Position numbers and translations under genes: made by a program
Shown: piece after piece, positions 17,216 through 30,959 of the stretch
Position numbering within the stretch: position 1 is the first letter of the stretch
How the letters are laid out: every line of letters starts with the position of its first letter
Assembly (NCBI GenBank): GCA_022841465.1
Contig: JALHRL010000002.1
Location: 1-64,000, forward strand
Reading direction: 5' to 3'
Origin: Bacteroidia bacterium
GTDB taxonomy: Bacteria > Bacteroidota > Bacteroidia > B-17B0 > Aurantibacillaceae
Length of the DNA stretch: 64,000 bases
The notes under the pieces: generated by a model
Told to the model about the DNA's origin: nothing
Database searches by the model: none
What the model saw: only the letters and a program-made list of their open reading frames with translations

Positions 17216-18067
17216 TTGGTACAAAGTAAAAATATAGGCATAAAACTTTTAGATTTTTTTATTTACTCTAATCTGTTAATTTCTGTTGCTTGTTTTTTAT
17301 TTACACTACAAACAGCTTTAGCCTTTCATGCATCAGAAACCGCAGCTGCTTTTTTTGGAATCACAAATTTTATTGCCACTTTTTCTTTATATAACCTACA
17401 ACGCATCTATCAGAGTACCAAGCCTTACACCGACCATCGTTTGGCTTGGTATCAACGCAACAAAAAATATTTATTTACTCTTATTTTACTTTTTATTAGT
17501 TTATACTACAGCGTTTTTATTAATAATTATATAGTGTTTAAAAATGGCCTGTTGTTATACCTACCTGCTGTTGCATTAAGTGTAGTTTATTTTTTACCTC
17601 CATTTGCCTTGCGTCGTATGCCCGTTTCAAAAATATTTTTAATTGGCGGCGTTTGGGCTTACACCTCTGTATTTATTCCTTTACTTTATAACGATAGTGT
17701 TTTCTCATTTTCAAATATTGGCCTGCATGAAACGTCTTACATTTTAGCACAGCTTTGTTTTATTGCTGCCATTTGTGTTCCATTTGATATTAGAGATTTT
17801 GAAAATGACCGGCAAAATTCTATTAAAACTTTGCCGGTACAATTTGGTTTGGGTAAATCAAAAACCATTGGTATTGTTGTTTTGCTGACTTATATTTTTC
17901 TTGCGCAAAACACTACACAATTTGCCGTTTTTGGAATTACCGGTTTTTTGGGTATCCTTTTAATTTATTTTTCTTATGAGCACAAACACCGTTATTATTT
18001 TTCGGTATTAGTAGATGGTTTAATAATATTGCAATTTGTGCTTTACATTTTACTTACTCGCAACTAA
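17216..18067 (+). CDS. UbiA-like polytopic membrane protein
   Basis: The 283-residue protein has about eight hydrophobic segments. The loop P-F-D-I-R-D-F-E-N-D (about residue 191) matches the second Asp-rich motif of UbiA prenyltransferases, followed by the family-like K-T-L-P-V-Q-F-G. The first motif is weaker (N-L-Q-R-I-Y-Q instead of N-D-x-x-D), so catalytic activity is uncertain. The start is a TTG, one base after the rlmB stop, with no upstream ATG. The last 18 bases overlap the convergent gene. Confidence 0.7.
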   Translation: MVQSKNIGIKLLDFFIYSNLLISVACFLFTLQTALAFHASETAAAFFGITNFIATFSLYNLQRIYQSTKPYTDHRLAWYQRNKKYLFTLILLFISLYYSVFINNYIVFKNGLLLYLPAVALSVVYFLPPFALRRMPVSKIFLIGGVWAYTSVFIPLLYNDSVFSFSNIGLHETSYILAQLCFIAAICVPFDIRDFENDRQNSIKTLPVQFGLGKSKTIGIVVLLTYIFLAQNTTQFAVFGITGFLGILLIYFSYEHKHRYYFSVLVDGLIILQFVLYILLTRN

Positions 18068-19207
18068 AACACGTTCGTTTTGCAATACCATTCTTTCTAC
18101 CTGAATAAGTTGCTCTAAAGCCATAATGATATTAATATTGTTGATATAATGAAAATCACTATCGTCAAAAAACATTCCGGCATAATCAACTTTAGTAGTT
18201 GCCTTTTGATTGTATGCTTCTAAAATGCTTTTTAATACCTGACTTTCTTTACTAACGGTAGTGTTATTAAATACATCAGAAAACGAATGATCGCCAATAC
18301 TTGCCCCTTCATTTTTTAGTTGATGAATCTCTAAACCGTTTGTTTGTTCTTTTACTATGTGTTGCTTTATGTTTTCACACATTTGTAAAACTTTTTCTGC
18401 TTCAGCATTTAATCCTTTTGAAAGTGAATCGGATTGTTTTTCTTTTAAAAGTGCCCACTCAGCTTGTAATAATTTTTCGTTGCGTAAAAAGTTTGCGGTA
18501 AATTGTTGATCACGTATTTGTGTTCCTTTTGGTGAACGCATTAATGTAAACAATAATCCACAAGCAGAAAGAAGGATGATAGATGAAACAATGGTGTTTA
18601 CTTTTGTTTCAGGGTTTCTGATTCCGGTAAAAAAGTAAAAAGGTAAAAACAAGAGCAACATAACGGCAATAGAACCTTGCATCATAATGTTAGCCCCCGG
18701 CCAATGCATTACTTTAAATAAAATACCCATACTAATTAAGATACCCGACAGAGTGCCTAAACCAATGGTTACTTTATCTTTTGTACTTTGTTTCTCTTTT
18801 ACTTTTAATAAGAACATAAGTGGTAAAAAAACCAAACTTAATATGCCAATGCCCAAAATGAGCATTATACCTGCACCGGGCCAGTGCAAAAACTTAAAGA
18901 TTAAACCCGTTGTAAAAAAGGAAGCAGAAACTGCTCCGCTAATTATCATTGCTTTTTTCATGGTGTAGTAGTTTTTAAAAATTATAAGAGAAATTGTTTC
19001 GTCTTCTATTTCTTTCAATTCGTTTTTAAAAAAAGATTGAACTGTTTTTTGATAGAAGTGCTCGAAGTCTCCATTTTCCTCGAGGTTGTTTTCAATAATA
19101 CAACATACATGATCTAAGAGGTTATACTGCAGGTCCTCAATCGTAACGCCACGTGCACTAATGTCGTTAAGAATAAAATCAATATGCCGATCTTTTATTT
19201 GGTACAT
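18050..19207 (-). CDS. PadR-linked membrane protein with three tandem GldL-motif TM repeats
   Basis: I start this 385-residue protein at the ATG rather than the TTG 12 bases upstream. Residues 1-75 form a helical cytoplasmic domain resembling the HAAS/DUF1700-type domains often encoded beside padR. Six TM segments follow as three repeats. Repeat 1 has F-K-F-L-H-W-P-G (K105, H108) and repeat 2 F-K-V-M-H-W-P-G (K165, H168). Repeat 3 is degenerate, F-T-L-M-R-S-P-K (T221, R224). The K-x-x-H-W-P-G motif is characteristic of GldL, but the TM2 glutamate of GldL is missing. A helical C-terminal region follows. The function is unknown, and envelope sensing is a guess. Confidence 0.75.
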   Translation of the reverse strand: MYQIKDRHIDFILNDISARGVTIEDLQYNLLDHVCCIIENNLEENGDFEHFYQKTVQSFFKNELKEIEDETISLIIFKNYYTMKKAMIISGAVSASFFTTGLIFKFLHWPGAGIMLILGIGILSLVFLPLMFLLKVKEKQSTKDKVTIGLGTLSGILISMGILFKVMHWPGANIMMQGSIAVMLLLFLPFYFFTGIRNPETKVNTIVSSIILLSACGLLFTLMRSPKGTQIRDQQFTANFLRNEKLLQAEWALLKEKQSDSLSKGLNAEAEKVLQMCENIKQHIVKEQTNGLEIHQLKNEGASIGDHSFSDVFNNTTVSKESQVLKSILEAYNQKATTKVDYAGMFFDDSDFHYINNINIIMALEQLIQVERMVLQNERVLVASK

Positions 19208-19248
19208 TTTTAATTTCAATTATTTGAAATAAAAATATTTTCTATTTA

Positions 19249-19590
19249 TTAAATGGTTTTTGGTTCAATATTTAAAAGTGTTTTCATGGTGCTTACAAAA
19301 TCTGCAAACTCACTCACTTTTTCATCACTTAATTTTTTTCCGGTATCACTTAACGAATAATACTTTCGTACACGCTTTCCAATAAATTCAGTTTCTGTTG
19401 TTAACAAACCTTCTGCCTCCAATGCATGAAGAGAAGGGTACAACGCTCCTTCCGTTAACTGAATTTTATTATTGGTTAAATCTTTCACGGTTTGTGTAAT
19501 TTCATAACCATACATTCTTTTGTTTTCTTTTAAAAGTTTAAGAATAATGGTTTTTAATGTTCCTTTTATGAGCTCAGATGAATAAATCAT
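19249..19590 (-). CDS. PadR family transcriptional regulator
   Basis: The 113-residue protein is a winged-helix PadR of the short type. It shows L-K-T-I-I-L-K-L-L at the start, M-Y-G-Y-E-I-T in helix 2, the recognition helix L-T-E-G-A-L-Y-P-S-L-H-A-L-E, and the wing V-R-K-Y-Y-S-L-S-D-T-G. PadRs usually repress their own operon, and the membrane protein downstream (41-base gap) is the likely co-regulated partner. The divergent phosphatase promoter lies in the same 106-base intergenic region and could also be controlled. Confidence 0.93.
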   Translation of the reverse strand: MIYSSELIKGTLKTIILKLLKENKRMYGYEITQTVKDLTNNKIQLTEGALYPSLHALEAEGLLTTETEFIGKRVRKYYSLSDTGKKLSDEKVSEFADFVSTMKTLLNIEPKTI

Positions 19591-19614: not shown

Positions 19615-19622
19615 CAAAGATA
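19615..19622 (-). promoter_or_regulatory. Putative -7 box of padR
   Basis: Minus-strand TATCTTTG matches TAnnTTTG, 24 bases before the padR start. The -33 region has no clear TTG. Confidence 0.42.
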
Positions 19623-19635
19623 CATTGTTTTCTTA
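19621..19635 (+). repeat. Direct repeat flanking the padR -7 box, copy 2
   Basis: Second copy, 25 bases (about 2.4 helical turns) from the first. It overlaps the edge of the padR -7 box and lies just before the -33 TTG of the divergent phosphatase promoter, so one bound factor could affect both directions. Confidence 0.4.
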
Positions 19636-19643
19636 TGCATTGG

Positions 19644-19674
19644 TTGATTATTTATAAAATAATTCCTATATTTG
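19644..19674 (+). promoter_or_regulatory. Promoter of the SpoIIE-type phosphatase gene
   Basis: TTG at 19644-19646 and TATATTTG at 19667-19674, separated by 20 bases, fit the Bacteroidota -33/-7 pattern. The -7 box lies 22 bases before the ATG. This is the only promoter in the window where both elements fit well. Confidence 0.55.
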
Positions 19675-19696: not shown

Positions 19697-21067
19697 ATGA
19701 AAAAAATTGGGAAGTTACTTTTAATTACGGGCATTTTACTAATTGTTCTGGTAATTTTTTTTGAAATAATTAAATTTTCTGCTTTTAAAGATAATGCAAA
19801 GCCCATTTTTATTCTATTCACTCTTGGTGGACTTTTATGTATTAGTTTAAGCATCCCCGCATTTTACTTTAAAAGCGAAAGCAAAAAAGTAAACAGGGTA
19901 ATTTTTATAACAACATTTCTCTGCGCCGTTGTTTTAGCCTTTGCTATATATAGTAAGAAAAACTATTATGCAGGTGCAGCCATTGAATTTATTTTATCAA
20001 TTCTTTTTTTCTCATTTTCTGCATTGCCTCTTATAATTAAAAAAAGGTACGACAAGCGAAAACATCTTTTTTCATGGAAACAACTTGTGTTAAGTTTCTC
20101 TGATATGATTTCTATTGCATTAATTATTCTTTCAGTTTTGTTTAAAATTATGCACTGGCCTGGCGCTAATACAATGCTAACTATTGGAAGTTTTGGATTT
20201 ATTATTACAATGATTTTCTGGAACAGAACATTTAGTAAAGAAGTAATGCTTAGGCATGATGCAGAACAAAAACTGAAACATGCTTTTATGGAACTGGAAG
20301 AAAAAAATAACGAAATTCTTGATTCTATAAATTACGCGCAACGAATTCAAAAAGCTTTATTGGCCAGTGATGGGATATTGAATAAAAATTTACCGGAACA
20401 TTTTGTGTTATTTCATCCGAAAGATATTGTAAGCGGTGATTTTTATTGGGCTTGCGAGGCGCATGGTAAATTTTATTTTATTGTTGCCGATTCTACCGGG
20501 CATGGCGTACCGGGCGCCTTTATGAGTTTGCTGAATATTTCATTTTTAAACGAAGCCATCAACGAAAAAGGAATTGAAAAACCAAATGAAACTTTAGAAC
20601 ACGTTAGAAAGCGCCTGATAGAAAGTTTAGCCATTGAAGGAGTTAGCGAAGGTGGTAACGATGGCATGGATTGTACTTTAATGGTGTTTGATTTTAAAAA
20701 CAATTTGATGGAAGTAAGTTGTGCCAATAATCCACTCATTATTTTACGAAACAATGAGTTTATAGAAATTGTCGAGGATAAAATTCCCGTAGGTAAATCA
20801 GTAAAAAACAATCAAACATTTACAACTCATCAAATTTCACTTCAAAAAAACGATATTTTATTTGCCTTTACCGATGGATTTGCAGACCAGTTTGGCGGAC
20901 CAAAAGGAAAAAAATTAAAGTATAAACAATTATGCAATTCTCTTATAGAAAACAAAGAGCTGCCCATGCAAGTTCAAAAAGAAAATTTACTGGCATTGTT
21001 CTCAGATTGGAAAGGCAAGTTAGAACAAGTAGATGATGTATTGATTGCAGGAATTAAAATTAGCTAA
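19697..21067 (+). CDS. Membrane-bound SpoIIE/PP2C-type protein phosphatase with a GldL-motif TM domain
   Basis: I start at the ATG; a GTG six bases upstream is possible. The 456-residue protein has six or so TM segments in residues 1-175, including F-K-I-M-H-W-P-G (K150, H153) identical in pattern to the neighbouring PadR-linked protein. A coiled-coil linker (about 183-212) leads to a PP2C domain with the SpoIIE metal-site motifs S-G-D-F-Y-W (D248), V-A-D-S-T-G-H-G-V-P-G (D265) and F-T-D-G-F-A-D-Q. Such phosphatases act on anti-anti-sigma-like or other Ser/Thr-phosphorylated proteins. No partner kinase or STAS protein is nearby. Confidence 0.85.
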   Translation: MKKIGKLLLITGILLIVLVIFFEIIKFSAFKDNAKPIFILFTLGGLLCISLSIPAFYFKSESKKVNRVIFITTFLCAVVLAFAIYSKKNYYAGAAIEFILSILFFSFSALPLIIKKRYDKRKHLFSWKQLVLSFSDMISIALIILSVLFKIMHWPGANTMLTIGSFGFIITMIFWNRTFSKEVMLRHDAEQKLKHAFMELEEKNNEILDSINYAQRIQKALLASDGILNKNLPEHFVLFHPKDIVSGDFYWACEAHGKFYFIVADSTGHGVPGAFMSLLNISFLNEAINEKGIEKPNETLEHVRKRLIESLAIEGVSEGGNDGMDCTLMVFDFKNNLMEVSCANNPLIILRNNEFIEIVEDKIPVGKSVKNNQTFTTHQISLQKNDILFAFTDGFADQFGGPKGKKLKYKQLCNSLIENKELPMQVQKENLLALFSDWKGKLEQVDDVLIAGIKIS

Positions 21068-21332: not shown

Positions 21333-22253
21333 ATGATTTCAACCTACATTTTTATTGCATTTTTGGTTGTTGCAATAGCAACACTTTTTAGAACGCGAAA
21401 AAACTATAATTTAAAAATAGAATTTGGTAAATGGATTTTAAAACCCATTTTAATTTTAATTATTGGTATTGTTATTAGTTTAATAAACCCCTTTTCTTTA
21501 GAACGTGTTGATGCAGGACATATTGGTTTAAAAGTAAATCTTACCGGCGACGAGCGAGGTGTATCTGATTACACCTACAAAACCGGCTGGGTTGTTTTTA
21601 ATAACTGGACAGAAAAATTATATGAATTCCCCACCTTTCAACAACACATAGATTATAGCATACAAACAGTAATTACCAAAGGTGGTTTTAGTGCAGATAT
21701 TAAACCCTCTTTTAATTATGCATTAGTTGCAAATACAGTTGGCGATATGTTTCAAAATTTACGCCTGCCAATTAAAGAGGTAGAACAAGGTTGGCTTAAA
21801 ACGGCTATTGTAGGCTCGGTAAATGATGTAGCCAATAAATGGGCAGTAGATAGTATTTTTAATCACCGTGAATTGTTTGAATCATCAATCATAATAGAAT
21901 GTAATAAAAGAATTTCAAAGTGGTTTACCGTTAGTCAGCTTCGTACCAACATTACTCCTCCACCGGCCCTGCAATCAGCTATTGAAGCCAAAACAAAAGC
22001 CTTACAAGAAGTTCAGGTAGCAGAAAATCAAAAACAGGTTGCTGTTGCAGAAGCTTTCAGAAAAATTGCAATAGCAAGAGGTGATTCGGCACAAATGGTT
22101 ATTGAGGCTGCGGGTGAGGCAGAGGCAATAAAACGTAAACAACTAACGTTAAGTAATATGTACATTGAATACATGAAGATTCAGAAGTGGGACGGAAAAA
22201 ACCCAACTACTGTTTTAGGAAAAGAAGGAAGTACCATTATTTCAGTTAAATAA
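21333..22253 (+). CDS. SPFH (prohibitin/band 7-like) membrane protein
   Basis: The 306-residue protein has two N-terminal hydrophobic segments (about 3-17 and 36-52). The SPFH domain begins near R-V-D-A-G-H-I-G-L-K and includes F-P-T-F-Q-Q-H-I-D. A long helix rich in Ala, Glu and Lys (about 205-275, V-A-E-A-F-R-K-I-A, A-A-G-E-A-E-A-I-K-R) is typical of the oligomerising stalk. SPFH proteins form large rings that organise membrane domains or bind membrane proteases. No protease gene (HflK/C partner FtsH, NfeD) is adjacent. Confidence 0.85.
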   Translation: MISTYIFIAFLVVAIATLFRTRKNYNLKIEFGKWILKPILILIIGIVISLINPFSLERVDAGHIGLKVNLTGDERGVSDYTYKTGWVVFNNWTEKLYEFPTFQQHIDYSIQTVITKGGFSADIKPSFNYALVANTVGDMFQNLRLPIKEVEQGWLKTAIVGSVNDVANKWAVDSIFNHRELFESSIIIECNKRISKWFTVSQLRTNITPPPALQSAIEAKTKALQEVQVAENQKQVAVAEAFRKIAIARGDSAQMVIEAAGEAEAIKRKQLTLSNMYIEYMKIQKWDGKNPTTVLGKEGSTIISVK

Positions 22254-27845: not shown

Positions 27846-30800
27846 ATGTTCAGATTTAAATTGTTACTTACTATTAGTTCTATTCTGCTTTTATCCTTTT
27901 CTGGCCATGCACTTATTGAAAATAAGGCCGAAACCAAAAACACCTTTCTGTTTATTGAAAACAAAGGTCAAATTGGCGATCAGTTTTACAAACCACGTAC
28001 AGATATTTTATTTGGAGGAACAGATGGGAAATTGGTGTATCATTTAAAAGCAAACGGAATTAGCTACCAACAATACAGAATTGATGAATGGAAAGAGGAA
28101 CCTGATTTTAGAAATAATAAAAAAATAAAAGTTCCATCGTTAACAACAATTTATCGCATTGATATTAATTGGTTGAATTCAAATAAAAATTCTTTTATAG
28201 AAAAATATAATCCAATTAATGGTTTTAATAATTATTACAACGAGGTTTGCCCCAATGGCGTAACCGGTGTTAAAGCTTATCAAGAACTCCTATACAAAAA
28301 TATTTATAATGGTATTGACTTGCGTTGGCACAACACCAACAATATTTTAAAATACGATTTTATAGTGGCTCCCGGTGCTGATTATAAATTCATTCAATTG
28401 GAAATTAAAGGAGCAACTGCACTTAGCATAAATAAAAATGGTGAACTAATTATACAAACACCTTTAGGTAAAATTATTGAACAAGCTCCTTACGTGCATC
28501 AATTAGGGAAAGAACTAAAAAGCAAATGGTTTATTAAAAACAATGTTGTAAGTTTTGAAATTGAAAATATTAATCCTTCACTTCCCTTAGTAATAGATCC
28601 GGGAGTTAGACAATGGGGCACCTATTATGGTGGTGGTGGAAACGATTCTAGTTTAAACAGTGCAAACGATGCAAATGGAAATACATATATGGCCGGTACA
28701 ACTGCTTCTAACGGCGGAACAGGAATTGCTACGGTTGGTAGTCATCAAGCAATATATGGCGGTGGACAAGACAACGGATACATTGTAAAATTTAATAGCG
28801 CAGGCGTTCGTCAGTGGGGGACCTATTATGGCGGACCTGTAAGAGAATTCGGTTTAAATTGTGCTGTAGATGCAAACAGTAATGTTTATTTAGTTGGGCA
28901 TTCTTTGGGCAACACCGGAACTCAAGTTGCAACATTAGGGAGTCATCAACCAACTTTTGGTGGAACTTGGGATGCTTATCTTGTAAAATTTAATACAAAC
29001 GGTGTGCGCCAATGGGGAACTTATTACGGTGGCCCCGGTTTAGAACATGGTAATGCCGTTGCTTGCGATGCTGCCGGAAATGTTTACATAACAGGTAAAA
29101 CAGATAATCCTTCGGGAACAGCCATTGCAACTATTGGTTCGCATCAAGCAAATTTTGGCGGTGTTGAAGATGCTTTTCTTGCAAAGTTTAATACAAACGG
29201 TATTCGTCAGTGGGGAACCTATTACGGTGGAACAGGAACAGATATGGGAAGAGGTTTAACCGTAGATAAAAACAACGATATTTATTTAGCAGGCTGGACA
29301 GATAACAGTGTGGCAAATGTTATTGCAACTCCGGGAGCTCACCAGAACGTATATGGCGGCGGAAGTTACGATGCTTTTGTGGTGAGGTTTAATACAAACG
29401 GTGTGCGCCAATGGGGTACGCAATACGGTGGAAGCGGAACTGATATGGGATACAGTGTTGCCGTAGATGATAATTTAAATGTTTACTTAGCAGGAAAAAC
29501 CAGTAGCAGTTTTAGTATTGCTAATGCATTAGCACATCAATCTGTTTACGGTGGTGGACCCAACGATGCATTTTTAGCAGCATTTGATGCAGCAGGTGTT
29601 AGAAAGTGGGGAACGTATTATGGCGGAAGTGGCGATGATGATGCGTGGGGATGCGCAGTGCATAAAACCGGGCATATTTATATTGCAGGATCTACAAGTT
29701 CGCAAGCAGCCAATGTTATTTCAACAGCCGGAAGTCATCAAGTAGGTTTTGGCGGAGGAACTTGGGATGGTTATATTGCGCAATTTGATTGGGATGGAGT
29801 GAGACAATGGGGTTCTTATTATGGAGAAACAGGCGACGATGTTGTTTACGGATGCAGTACCGATAATTTTTTTCATGTATTTATTACAGGCTCAACTGAT
29901 ACAAATAGTGGAACAGCCATTGCATCAACAGGAAGTCACCAACCCAATCACAACGGTGGTTGGGGCGATGCTTTTTTAGCAAAATTTTACGATTGTCCTG
30001 CTCCTTTAGCTCCAACAAATACTACAACACCGTCAAATTTACTTTTTTGTGCTGGAGCTGCAACTACATTAAATGCAACCGGTACCGGAACACTTAATTG
30101 GTATGCCACTTCAACATCAACTACAAGTTTAGGTACAGGCACAGTTTATGTTACACCTGTGTTAACAGCAGGCACGCATACCTATTATGCAGAAGCAAAA
30201 ACCTGTACTGTTGGCCCAAGAACAGCTATTACCATTACGGTAAACCCTACTCCAACCATAAACATAATAGCAACACCCACCACCGTTTGTGCAGGAAAAA
30301 ATACAACTTTAACAGCAAGCGGTGCAGTTTCTTACACCTGGGGTTTGGGTTCTAACAATGCGCAAATTACAGTTACACCAACTACAACTACCATTTTTTC
30401 TATTGCTGCCACAAACACCTTTGGTTGCATTGGAAATAATACTATACAAATTAATACGCATCCTTTAGATCCGGTTACCTTAACGCCATCAACTTATACA
30501 AGTTGTTTAACCATATTTGGCGGTGGCCCTATTACCTTAACCGGAAATCCTCCGGGTGGAACTTACTCCGGACCAAACGTTGCAGGAAACCAACTAAACC
30601 CAACTGCATTAGGAACATTTAATCCGGTTTATACTTATACAAACAGTGTTACCGGCTGTACTAACAATGCCACTACCAATATAGAAGTGTTTAGTTGCCT
30701 GAGTGTAAATGAAATTTCAGCCAACTATAATAAATTTAAAATATCTCCCAACCCAAGTAATGGAATATATGTTGTTACCTGCGAACACGATAATTTAAAA

Positions 30801-30959
30801 ACAATTGAAGTAACAGACATCAACGGAAAAATAATTTATTTTATTTCTAATAAAGAAAAAATGTATAAAATAGATATTAGCAACTATGCCAATGGAATTT
30901 ATTTTCTACAGATAAAATCTGAAAAAGGAAAAGATTCGGCAAAACTTATAAAGGAATAA
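27846..30959 (+). CDS. Secreted seven-repeat SBBP beta-propeller protein with T9SS sorting domain
   Basis: The 1037-residue protein has a signal peptide (about 1-24), then a DUF7948-type N-terminal domain starting F-I-E-N-K-G-Q-I-G-D. Seven SBBP repeats follow (about 253-715), each beginning near G-V-R-Q-W-G-T-Y-Y-G-G, likely one closed seven-bladed propeller. Next come Ig-like/C-G-A-A-T-T-L type domains (about 720-950), and a T9SS type A domain with S-P-N-P-S-N-G and G-I-Y-F-L-Q. It is exported to the cell surface or medium. The ligand is unknown. Confidence 0.88.
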   Translation: MFRFKLLLTISSILLLSFSGHALIENKAETKNTFLFIENKGQIGDQFYKPRTDILFGGTDGKLVYHLKANGISYQQYRIDEWKEEPDFRNNKKIKVPSLTTIYRIDINWLNSNKNSFIEKYNPINGFNNYYNEVCPNGVTGVKAYQELLYKNIYNGIDLRWHNTNNILKYDFIVAPGADYKFIQLEIKGATALSINKNGELIIQTPLGKIIEQAPYVHQLGKELKSKWFIKNNVVSFEIENINPSLPLVIDPGVRQWGTYYGGGGNDSSLNSANDANGNTYMAGTTASNGGTGIATVGSHQAIYGGGQDNGYIVKFNSAGVRQWGTYYGGPVREFGLNCAVDANSNVYLVGHSLGNTGTQVATLGSHQPTFGGTWDAYLVKFNTNGVRQWGTYYGGPGLEHGNAVACDAAGNVYITGKTDNPSGTAIATIGSHQANFGGVEDAFLAKFNTNGIRQWGTYYGGTGTDMGRGLTVDKNNDIYLAGWTDNSVANVIATPGAHQNVYGGGSYDAFVVRFNTNGVRQWGTQYGGSGTDMGYSVAVDDNLNVYLAGKTSSSFSIANALAHQSVYGGGPNDAFLAAFDAAGVRKWGTYYGGSGDDDAWGCAVHKTGHIYIAGSTSSQAANVISTAGSHQVGFGGGTWDGYIAQFDWDGVRQWGSYYGETGDDVVYGCSTDNFFHVFITGSTDTNSGTAIASTGSHQPNHNGGWGDAFLAKFYDCPAPLAPTNTTTPSNLLFCAGAATTLNATGTGTLNWYATSTSTTSLGTGTVYVTPVLTAGTHTYYAEAKTCTVGPRTAITITVNPTPTINIIATPTTVCAGKNTTLTASGAVSYTWGLGSNNAQITVTPTTTTIFSIAATNTFGCIGNNTIQINTHPLDPVTLTPSTYTSCLTIFGGGPITLTGNPPGGTYSGPNVAGNQLNPTALGTFNPVYTYTNSVTGCTNNATTNIEVFSCLSVNEISANYNKFKISPNPSNGIYVVTCEHDNLKTIEVTDINGKIIYFISNKEKMYKIDISNYANGIYFLQIKSEKGKDSAKLIKE
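28602..29990 (+). repeat. Seven SBBP repeats (about 66 codons each)
   Basis: The motif G-V/I-R-Q/K-W-G-T/S-Y/Q-Y-G recurs seven times, followed each time by a V/I-Y-L/I-A/T-G strand and an S-H-Q or equivalent turn (A-H-Q). Codons differ between units, so the repeats are old. Confidence 0.9.

Follow-up and report, generated by a model that had tools for sequence, protein, structure and literature searches.

A receptor phosphatase and the membrane partner of a PadR regulator, encoded by divergent genes, have in common a predicted sensor derived from the type IX secretion motor. Both genes lie in the window, the 64,000-nucleotide stretch of Bacteroidia DNA that was analysed and to which plain coordinates below refer. 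In a literature search outside subscription papers and preprints, GldL, GldM and SpoIIE did not appear side by side in any paper, and the sole joint match for GldL and PadR was unrelated. We tentatively read the two genes as one two-output module, consisting of a receptor phosphatase and a PadR-tied GldL2-GldM sensor, both built from motor parts, and give this reading close to even credence.

Architecture of the two divergent proteins

The phosphatase gene and the parts of its product are as follows.

19697–21067, plus strand: GldL-hairpin SpoIIE/PP2C receptor phosphatase, ORF of 456 aa from ATG
19892–20041, plus strand: first GldL-type hairpin, residues 66–115, with the degenerate loop AIYSKKNYYAG (hairpin HMM; profile alignment with the neighbour)
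20081–20230, plus strand: second GldL-type hairpin, residues 129–178, with FKIMHWPG and without a TM2 Glu (hairpin HMM and PF22827)
20231–20359, plus strand: coiled-coil linker, about residues 179–221, including NEILDSINYAQRIQKAL (AF2 model; conserved in 14 orthologues)
20465–21052, plus strand: PP2C/SpoIIE domain with intact metal-binding motifs SGDFYWA, ADSTGHGVPGA, GMDCTL, TDGFADQFGG and QVDDVLI

Six hydrophobic or transmembrane (TM) segments, arranged as an N-terminal TM pair, the degenerate hairpin and the FKIMHWPG hairpin, are followed by one long helix and the PP2C domain. An earlier note on this DNA had placed the motif at residues 150–156 of this ORF, in the last TM pair preceding a coiled coil and a PP2C domain. 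The placement in that TM pair holds, and FKIMHWPG occupies residues 149–156 (nucleotides 20141–20164). PF22827 (GldL_N) matches residues 141–164 (E = 8.1e-6; score 26.4 bits, cut-off 24) and PF07228 (SpoIIE) matches residues 257–452 (E = 3.7e-19; 69.9 bits against a cut-off of 25). The GldL equivalog model TIGR03513 scored 29 bits, below its cut-off of 68.3. A GldL hairpin HMM trained on all classes recovered two hairpins in the phosphatase and gave no match to its N-terminal TM pair. In the AF2 model (mean pLDDT 81), a single helix spans residues 157–221, and loop and linker residues are conserved over 11–14 orthologues.

The divergent operon has these features.

19249–19590, minus strand: padR, 113 aa, first gene of the operon (PF03551, E = 4.7e-19)
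18050–19219, minus strand: PadR-partner membrane protein, 389 aa, with an N-terminal helical domain, two GldL hairpins and a GldM-like module (ORF, domain searches, AF2 model)
18629–18958, minus strand: two GldL-type hairpins of the PadR partner, residues 88–137 and 148–197, with a 60-residue period (GldL_N, hairpin model)
18053–18607, minus strand: GldM-like TM helix and periplasmic domain 1 of the PadR partner, about residues 205–389 (structure, PF12081 in relatives, profile chain)

Three copies of the motif had been reported in this neighbour. That count is ruled out, as HWPG occurs only at residues 108 and 168, exactly 60 apart, and at the third position stands LMRSPKG, within the TM helix of the GldM-like module. 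With two HWPG hairpins ahead of this helix and a GldM-like periplasmic domain, the protein encoded behind padR is a GldL2-GldM fusion.

Three lines of sequence and model evidence agree in pointing to a GldM-like TM helix and domain 1 in the last 160–185 residues. In a VIA structural search with the AF2 model of the PadR partner (mean pLDDT 84), the top eight rows were all GldM/PorM, with Z of 9.9–11.4 over 145–152 residues, and the next row had Z 8.8; because helical bundles can reach Z of 9.9–11.4 by chance, the weight of the assignment lies on eight of eight rows falling in one family and on the sequence links. Foldseek alone gave weak GldM matches (E = 1.4 and 3.5, probability 0.51 and 0.35). 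PF12081 (GldM_1st) matches six of 21 relatives of the PadR partner (best E = 4.9e-14) and does not match the window's own protein at E 1, so that the GldM module is predicted there at the level of the family. The profile of the PadR partners that are more diverged in sequence matches that of GldL-GldM fusions (E = 1.2e-7), which in turn match true GldM (E = 1.1e-15). Compared directly with true GldM, the profile of these diverged partners was not significant (probability 0.2%), and the link to GldM therefore runs via the fusions.

The N-terminal domain of the PadR partner, of about 80 residues and helical in the AF2 model, takes the position that HAAS has in HAAS-PadR dyads, although no Pfam match to HAAS/DUF1700 was found up to E 10. 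PMC11237479 proposes that the multi-TM protein of such dyads relays signals from the membrane to PadR and so offers another route besides two-component systems. The dyads described there have, as here, padR followed by a multi-TM gene with a helical N-terminal domain of about 80 residues, but a GldL-GldM sensor is absent from the sensors quoted from that source. A stand-alone padR followed by a multi-TM gene is present in the window, and this gene order is kept in nearly all relatives.

Homology to GldL and loss of the motor residue

The match to GldL_N exceeds chance: in the whole genome, this model matches three proteins only, namely true GldL, the phosphatase and the PadR partner. The earlier note had described the divergent genes as two unrelated architectures, a description that fails for their membrane regions. 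Residues 66–115 of the phosphatase form a further, degenerate hairpin, and in a profile alignment its two-hairpin region and that of the PadR partner align over 105 columns with E = 2.9e-23.

The Glu at His+15 of GldL is equivalent to E49, which the Flavobacterium johnsoniae motor cannot do without (PMC8986121). All 22 true GldL hairpins examined have this Glu, and all 13 hairpins with the motif in the phosphatase family lack it, so the lack of a GldL-like Glu in TM2, already remarked on for the window protein, is now confirmed for the family. All 13 have Phe, Leu or Val at His+15 (Phe in the window phosphatase) and no acidic residue within three positions. In the other hairpin classes, no genuine hairpin has Glu at His+15; the L138 and L167 hairpins have an acidic residue at other positions nearby, and the remaining acidic matches are off-target. 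The missing TM2 Glu rules out that these hairpins are working proton motors. A Lys or Arg at His-3 is retained in the phosphatase family, so that, judged by these residues, the loop appears to be under constraint though the motor site is gone. Since the residue that drives the motor is missing, both proteins look like sensors made from GldL motor parts rather than motors. GldL/PorL (PF22827, TIGR03513) and the phosphatase are thus alike in the two-helix hairpin, the FK-x-x-HWPG loop and a cytoplasmic continuation, but GldL/PorL has the motor Glu and one hairpin, whereas the phosphatase has no such Glu, two tandem hairpins and a PP2C fusion.

Retention of the FK-x-x-HWPG loop and of the GldM domain 1 fold, despite the loss of the motor residue, would also fit proteins whose hairpins join the genuine GldLM complex or compete for it, the phosphatase and PadR then reporting on or tuning the type IX motor. 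The genome does encode a true GldL and two GldM-length GldM_1st proteins, and there is a precedent in the regulator PorX, which according to the available text of PMC5005315 and PMC10951265 binds PorL and is linked to motor activity. We nevertheless consider this improbable, as the number and spacing of the covalently joined tandem hairpins would allow closed assemblies of their own, and no neighbourhood link to the gld operon was seen.

The two GldM-length proteins with GldM domain 1 are encoded at G000:C9:20350 and G000:C5:123067, and because there are two of them the genome possibly has two motor types. Within the window, 27846–30959 encodes a large, secreted-looking protein whose C-terminus, by eye, resembles a type IX sorting domain.

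Sensors of the same parts occur in other combinations. GldL hairpins are fused to GldM domain 1 alone in proteins of about 310–350 aa, and single proteins of 715–726 aa contain two GldL hairpins, GldM domain 1, a further TM segment, a coiled coil and SpoIIE.

L102:2823–5003, L103:2980–5127, L104:2616–4769, L105:3725–5872 and L108:4746–6899: GldL2-GldM-SpoIIE fusions

These fusions resemble the phosphatase in having GldL hairpins before a coiled coil and SpoIIE; they differ in the GldM domain 1 and further TM segment ahead of the linker, neither of which the phosphatase has. There is also a two-gene form of the PadR operon, in which the first protein has three GldL hairpins and one GldM-like module and the second has two and one (13 of 13 operons examined: L131, L132, L136–L139, L151, L157, L167, L169, L193, L196 and L074:4926–7660). 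The hairpins (three and two) and the GldM modules (one in each protein) add up to the 5:2 stoichiometry of the GldLM motor, and a heterodimer of the two proteins would hold five GldL hairpins and two GldM helices without the proton glutamate. It is conceivable, though doubtful, that in Bacteroidota the 5:2 rotary motor GldLM has given rise to a sensor of envelope mechanics or secretion state, which signals via PadR and, in the fused or divergent phosphatases, also via PP2C. The window's PadR partner, with two hairpins, and the phosphatase, with two and an unrecognised TM pair, might associate similarly.

Recurrence of the pair and its intergenic region

Orthologues of the phosphatase were collected from 11 same-genus genomes among 60 related genomes, by a search with the N-terminal region, and from L122, L125 and L130 by a contig search (n = 14). 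In six of the 14 loci (the window's own, G008, L122, L125, G002 and G024) the phosphatase is divergent from padR. These six represent five flanking contexts at about 40% protein identity: the outer flanks are hemL/kynU in the window and G008, an M28-type peptidase and purK in L122, a dnaE-like gene in L125, an IleRS-like gene in G002 and other genes in G024 (names other than hemL/kynU were read by eye). In the phosphatase tree, clade A holds the six adjacent loci and two non-adjacent ones, and clade B has none adjacent (UFB 98). The G008 phosphatase, in the shared hemL context, is 64% identical to that of the window. Its PadR-side protein groups with the distant two-gene operon family (support 100). 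Because a PadR-side protein of a distant lineage stands at the same hemL locus, one of the two lineages has replaced its partner at this site with a different protein of similar kind. The pairing of phosphatase and PadR partner is not random.

Co-occurrence across genomes, which had been proposed as a check, is near chance. Among 37 same-genus genomes, both genes are present in six (5.4 expected), the PadR partner alone in 12, the phosphatase alone in five and neither in 14. It was therefore rejected as proof of the pair; only the clade-A subset leans that way, with a PadR partner in the genome for five of six clade-A phosphatases (hypergeometric p about 0.08). In an even sample of the phylum, the phosphatase model matches two of 247 genomes, one of them via a PadR-type protein, and the PadR-partner model four of 296; the contig search found PadR-type proteins in MAGs from several orders. 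L085 and L122 have, by eye, similar loci with an M28-type peptidase, the PadR partner, padR and purK, and the phosphatase is present in L122 and absent in G017, which makes the two a clean contrast for its gain or loss.

The earlier proposal of a functional pair therefore stands in part. The two genes could instead encode sensors that act separately, each reusing a membrane module common in Bacteroidota, and their adjacency would then be inherited from one ancestor with no joint function. The confinement of all adjacent loci to one phosphatase clade is what this would give, as are the near-expected co-occurrence, the genomes with one gene alone, and the PadR partners of G012 and G017, close relatives of those of the window and L122, next to which there is no phosphatase. 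It accounts less well for a pair that persists in five contexts at about 40% identity, for G008, where the partner operon is of another lineage and the arrangement is unchanged, and for a module found in just three proteins of the genome, two of them adjacent. We regard descent without joint function as rather unlikely. The two-output module draws further on the intergenic region, where the following elements were identified.

19620–19640, no strand assigned: predicted PadR operator ATACATTGTTTTCTTATGCAT, consensus ATACATAA-N5-TTATGTAT, conserved upstream of padR in 21 loci
19615–19622, minus strand: predicted padR -7 box TATCTTTG, overlapping the predicted operator (sequence and consensus)
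19644–19674, plus strand: predicted phosphatase promoter TTG-N20-TATATTTG, its TTG beginning three bases past the operator (consensus)

The -7 box of Bacteroidota promoters has the consensus TAnnTTTG. At the 21 padR loci, the inverted repeat, or a sequence near it, runs into such a box. The operator pattern matches twice in the 3.77-Mb genome, one match being 19620–19640, and the reversed control gave none. By the promoter consensus, we take TTG-N20-TATATTTG to be the promoter facing the phosphatase. No good PadR operator was found upstream of the non-adjacent phosphatases, so there is no sign of a wider PadR regulon over them. With the operator conserved at padR and lacking at these phosphatases, PadR probably regulates its own gene through the predicted operator; that it controls the phosphatase as well is plausible at the adjacent loci only.

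Phosphatase output and proposed mechanism

The nearest solved relative of the PP2C domain, by sequence (E = 7.6e-26) and by fold (TM-score 0.86–0.87, on target), is that of SiaA, the receptor PP2C of the Pseudomonas aeruginosa SiaABCD pathway (PDB 6K4E), with which the metal-binding motifs and aspartates line up. SiaA likewise joins a membrane sensor, a helical linker and PP2C, but no GldL hairpins are described for it; the phosphatase scores 145.5 bits with the SiaA equivalog NF038263, below the cut-off of 700, and no SiaC or SiaB gene adjoins it. In P. aeruginosa, SiaC is dephosphorylated by SiaA (PMC7647112). Beside its 43 SpoIIE matches, the genome has seven proteins of SiaC type and about four of SiaB type, but a single STAS protein and one clear RsbW-like kinase. 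Four of the SiaC genes adjoin other SpoIIE genes. The search for STAS or anti-sigma partners proposed earlier thus found candidates in the genome, and none near the phosphatase: a neighbourhood check gave no SiaC, SiaB or STAS gene there. Since the catalytic domain is SiaA-like and SiaC/SiaB outnumber STAS/RsbW, our best guess from these comparisons is that the substrate of the predicted phosphatase would be SiaC-type rather than STAS-type.

Dephosphorylation had been suggested as an output, and the intact PP2C domain of the window protein is in keeping with this. It is not an obligate output, because three orthologues (G002, G014 and G015) end inside the linker, keeping TM sensor and linker without a PP2C domain, and one of them, G002, is among the adjacent loci. 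By tblastn, no PP2C remnant was found downstream of the three.

L077:7702–8961, L075:7372–8103 and L080:7372–8097: phosphatase orthologues without PP2C

The shortened orthologues also bear on whether the hairpins merely keep the phosphatase at the membrane, with PP2C regulated from elsewhere. The 43 SpoIIE matches of the genome lie in frames that differ widely in length, which implies that domain swaps are common, and the loop of the first hairpin is degenerate, as a passive anchor would allow. A mere anchor does not explain three orthologues that retain sensor and linker without PP2C, nor the conservation of loop and linker residues over 11–14 orthologues, and we judge it very improbable.

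Work on RsbU indicated that a coiled coil transmits to the PP2C dimer, and this was proposed as general for the phosphatase family (PMC12143880). The phosphatase would share the proposed transmission of RsbU and other coiled-coil-linked PP2Cs, with a coiled-coil linker, a PP2C dimer and a switch element; RsbU, however, is activated by soluble RsbT, whereas the linker in the window phosphatase runs straight from a TM helix.

In the two-output module, the TM region that would act as the sensor of the phosphatase derives from GldL, one half of the type IX secretion/gliding motor, as the homologous hairpins show, and it has lost the glutamate of the proton drive. With membrane state as a possible input, movement of the hairpins would pass along the continuous cytoplasmic helix to the PP2C dimer, as suggested by the model and by RsbU-type phosphatases, and PP2C would then dephosphorylate a partner-switch protein, more likely SiaC-type than STAS-type. 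The PadR operon would supply a second sensor of the same motor parts, GldL2-GldM, presumably tied to PadR, and the single predicted PadR operator in the common intergenic region may serve both genes. The PadR arm would probably set the amount of sensor, with the phosphatase arm responding quickly, at the post-translational level, to the state of the envelope or motor. We count in favour of the module that other genomes have these sensor parts and SpoIIE in one fused protein, and against it that the genes also occur alone, at a co-occurrence near expectation, that there are orthologues without PP2C, that non-adjacent phosphatases have no such operator, and that SiaC, SiaB and STAS genes are lacking nearby.

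Directly downstream of the phosphatase, at 21333–22253, lies a gene for a Band-7/SPFH protein; Band-7 proteins are tied to PSP envelope-stress systems in PMC11237479. This neighbour is not conserved, since the next gene in G008 is hemL.

Ion-driven 5:2 motors are known as machines, and the module, if true, would be a direct example of such a motor recast as a receptor. It would also give a handle on how Bacteroidota sense the state of the envelope or of type IX secretion. With one intergenic operator, two outputs and one common sensor fold, the pair is a clean genetic test bed.
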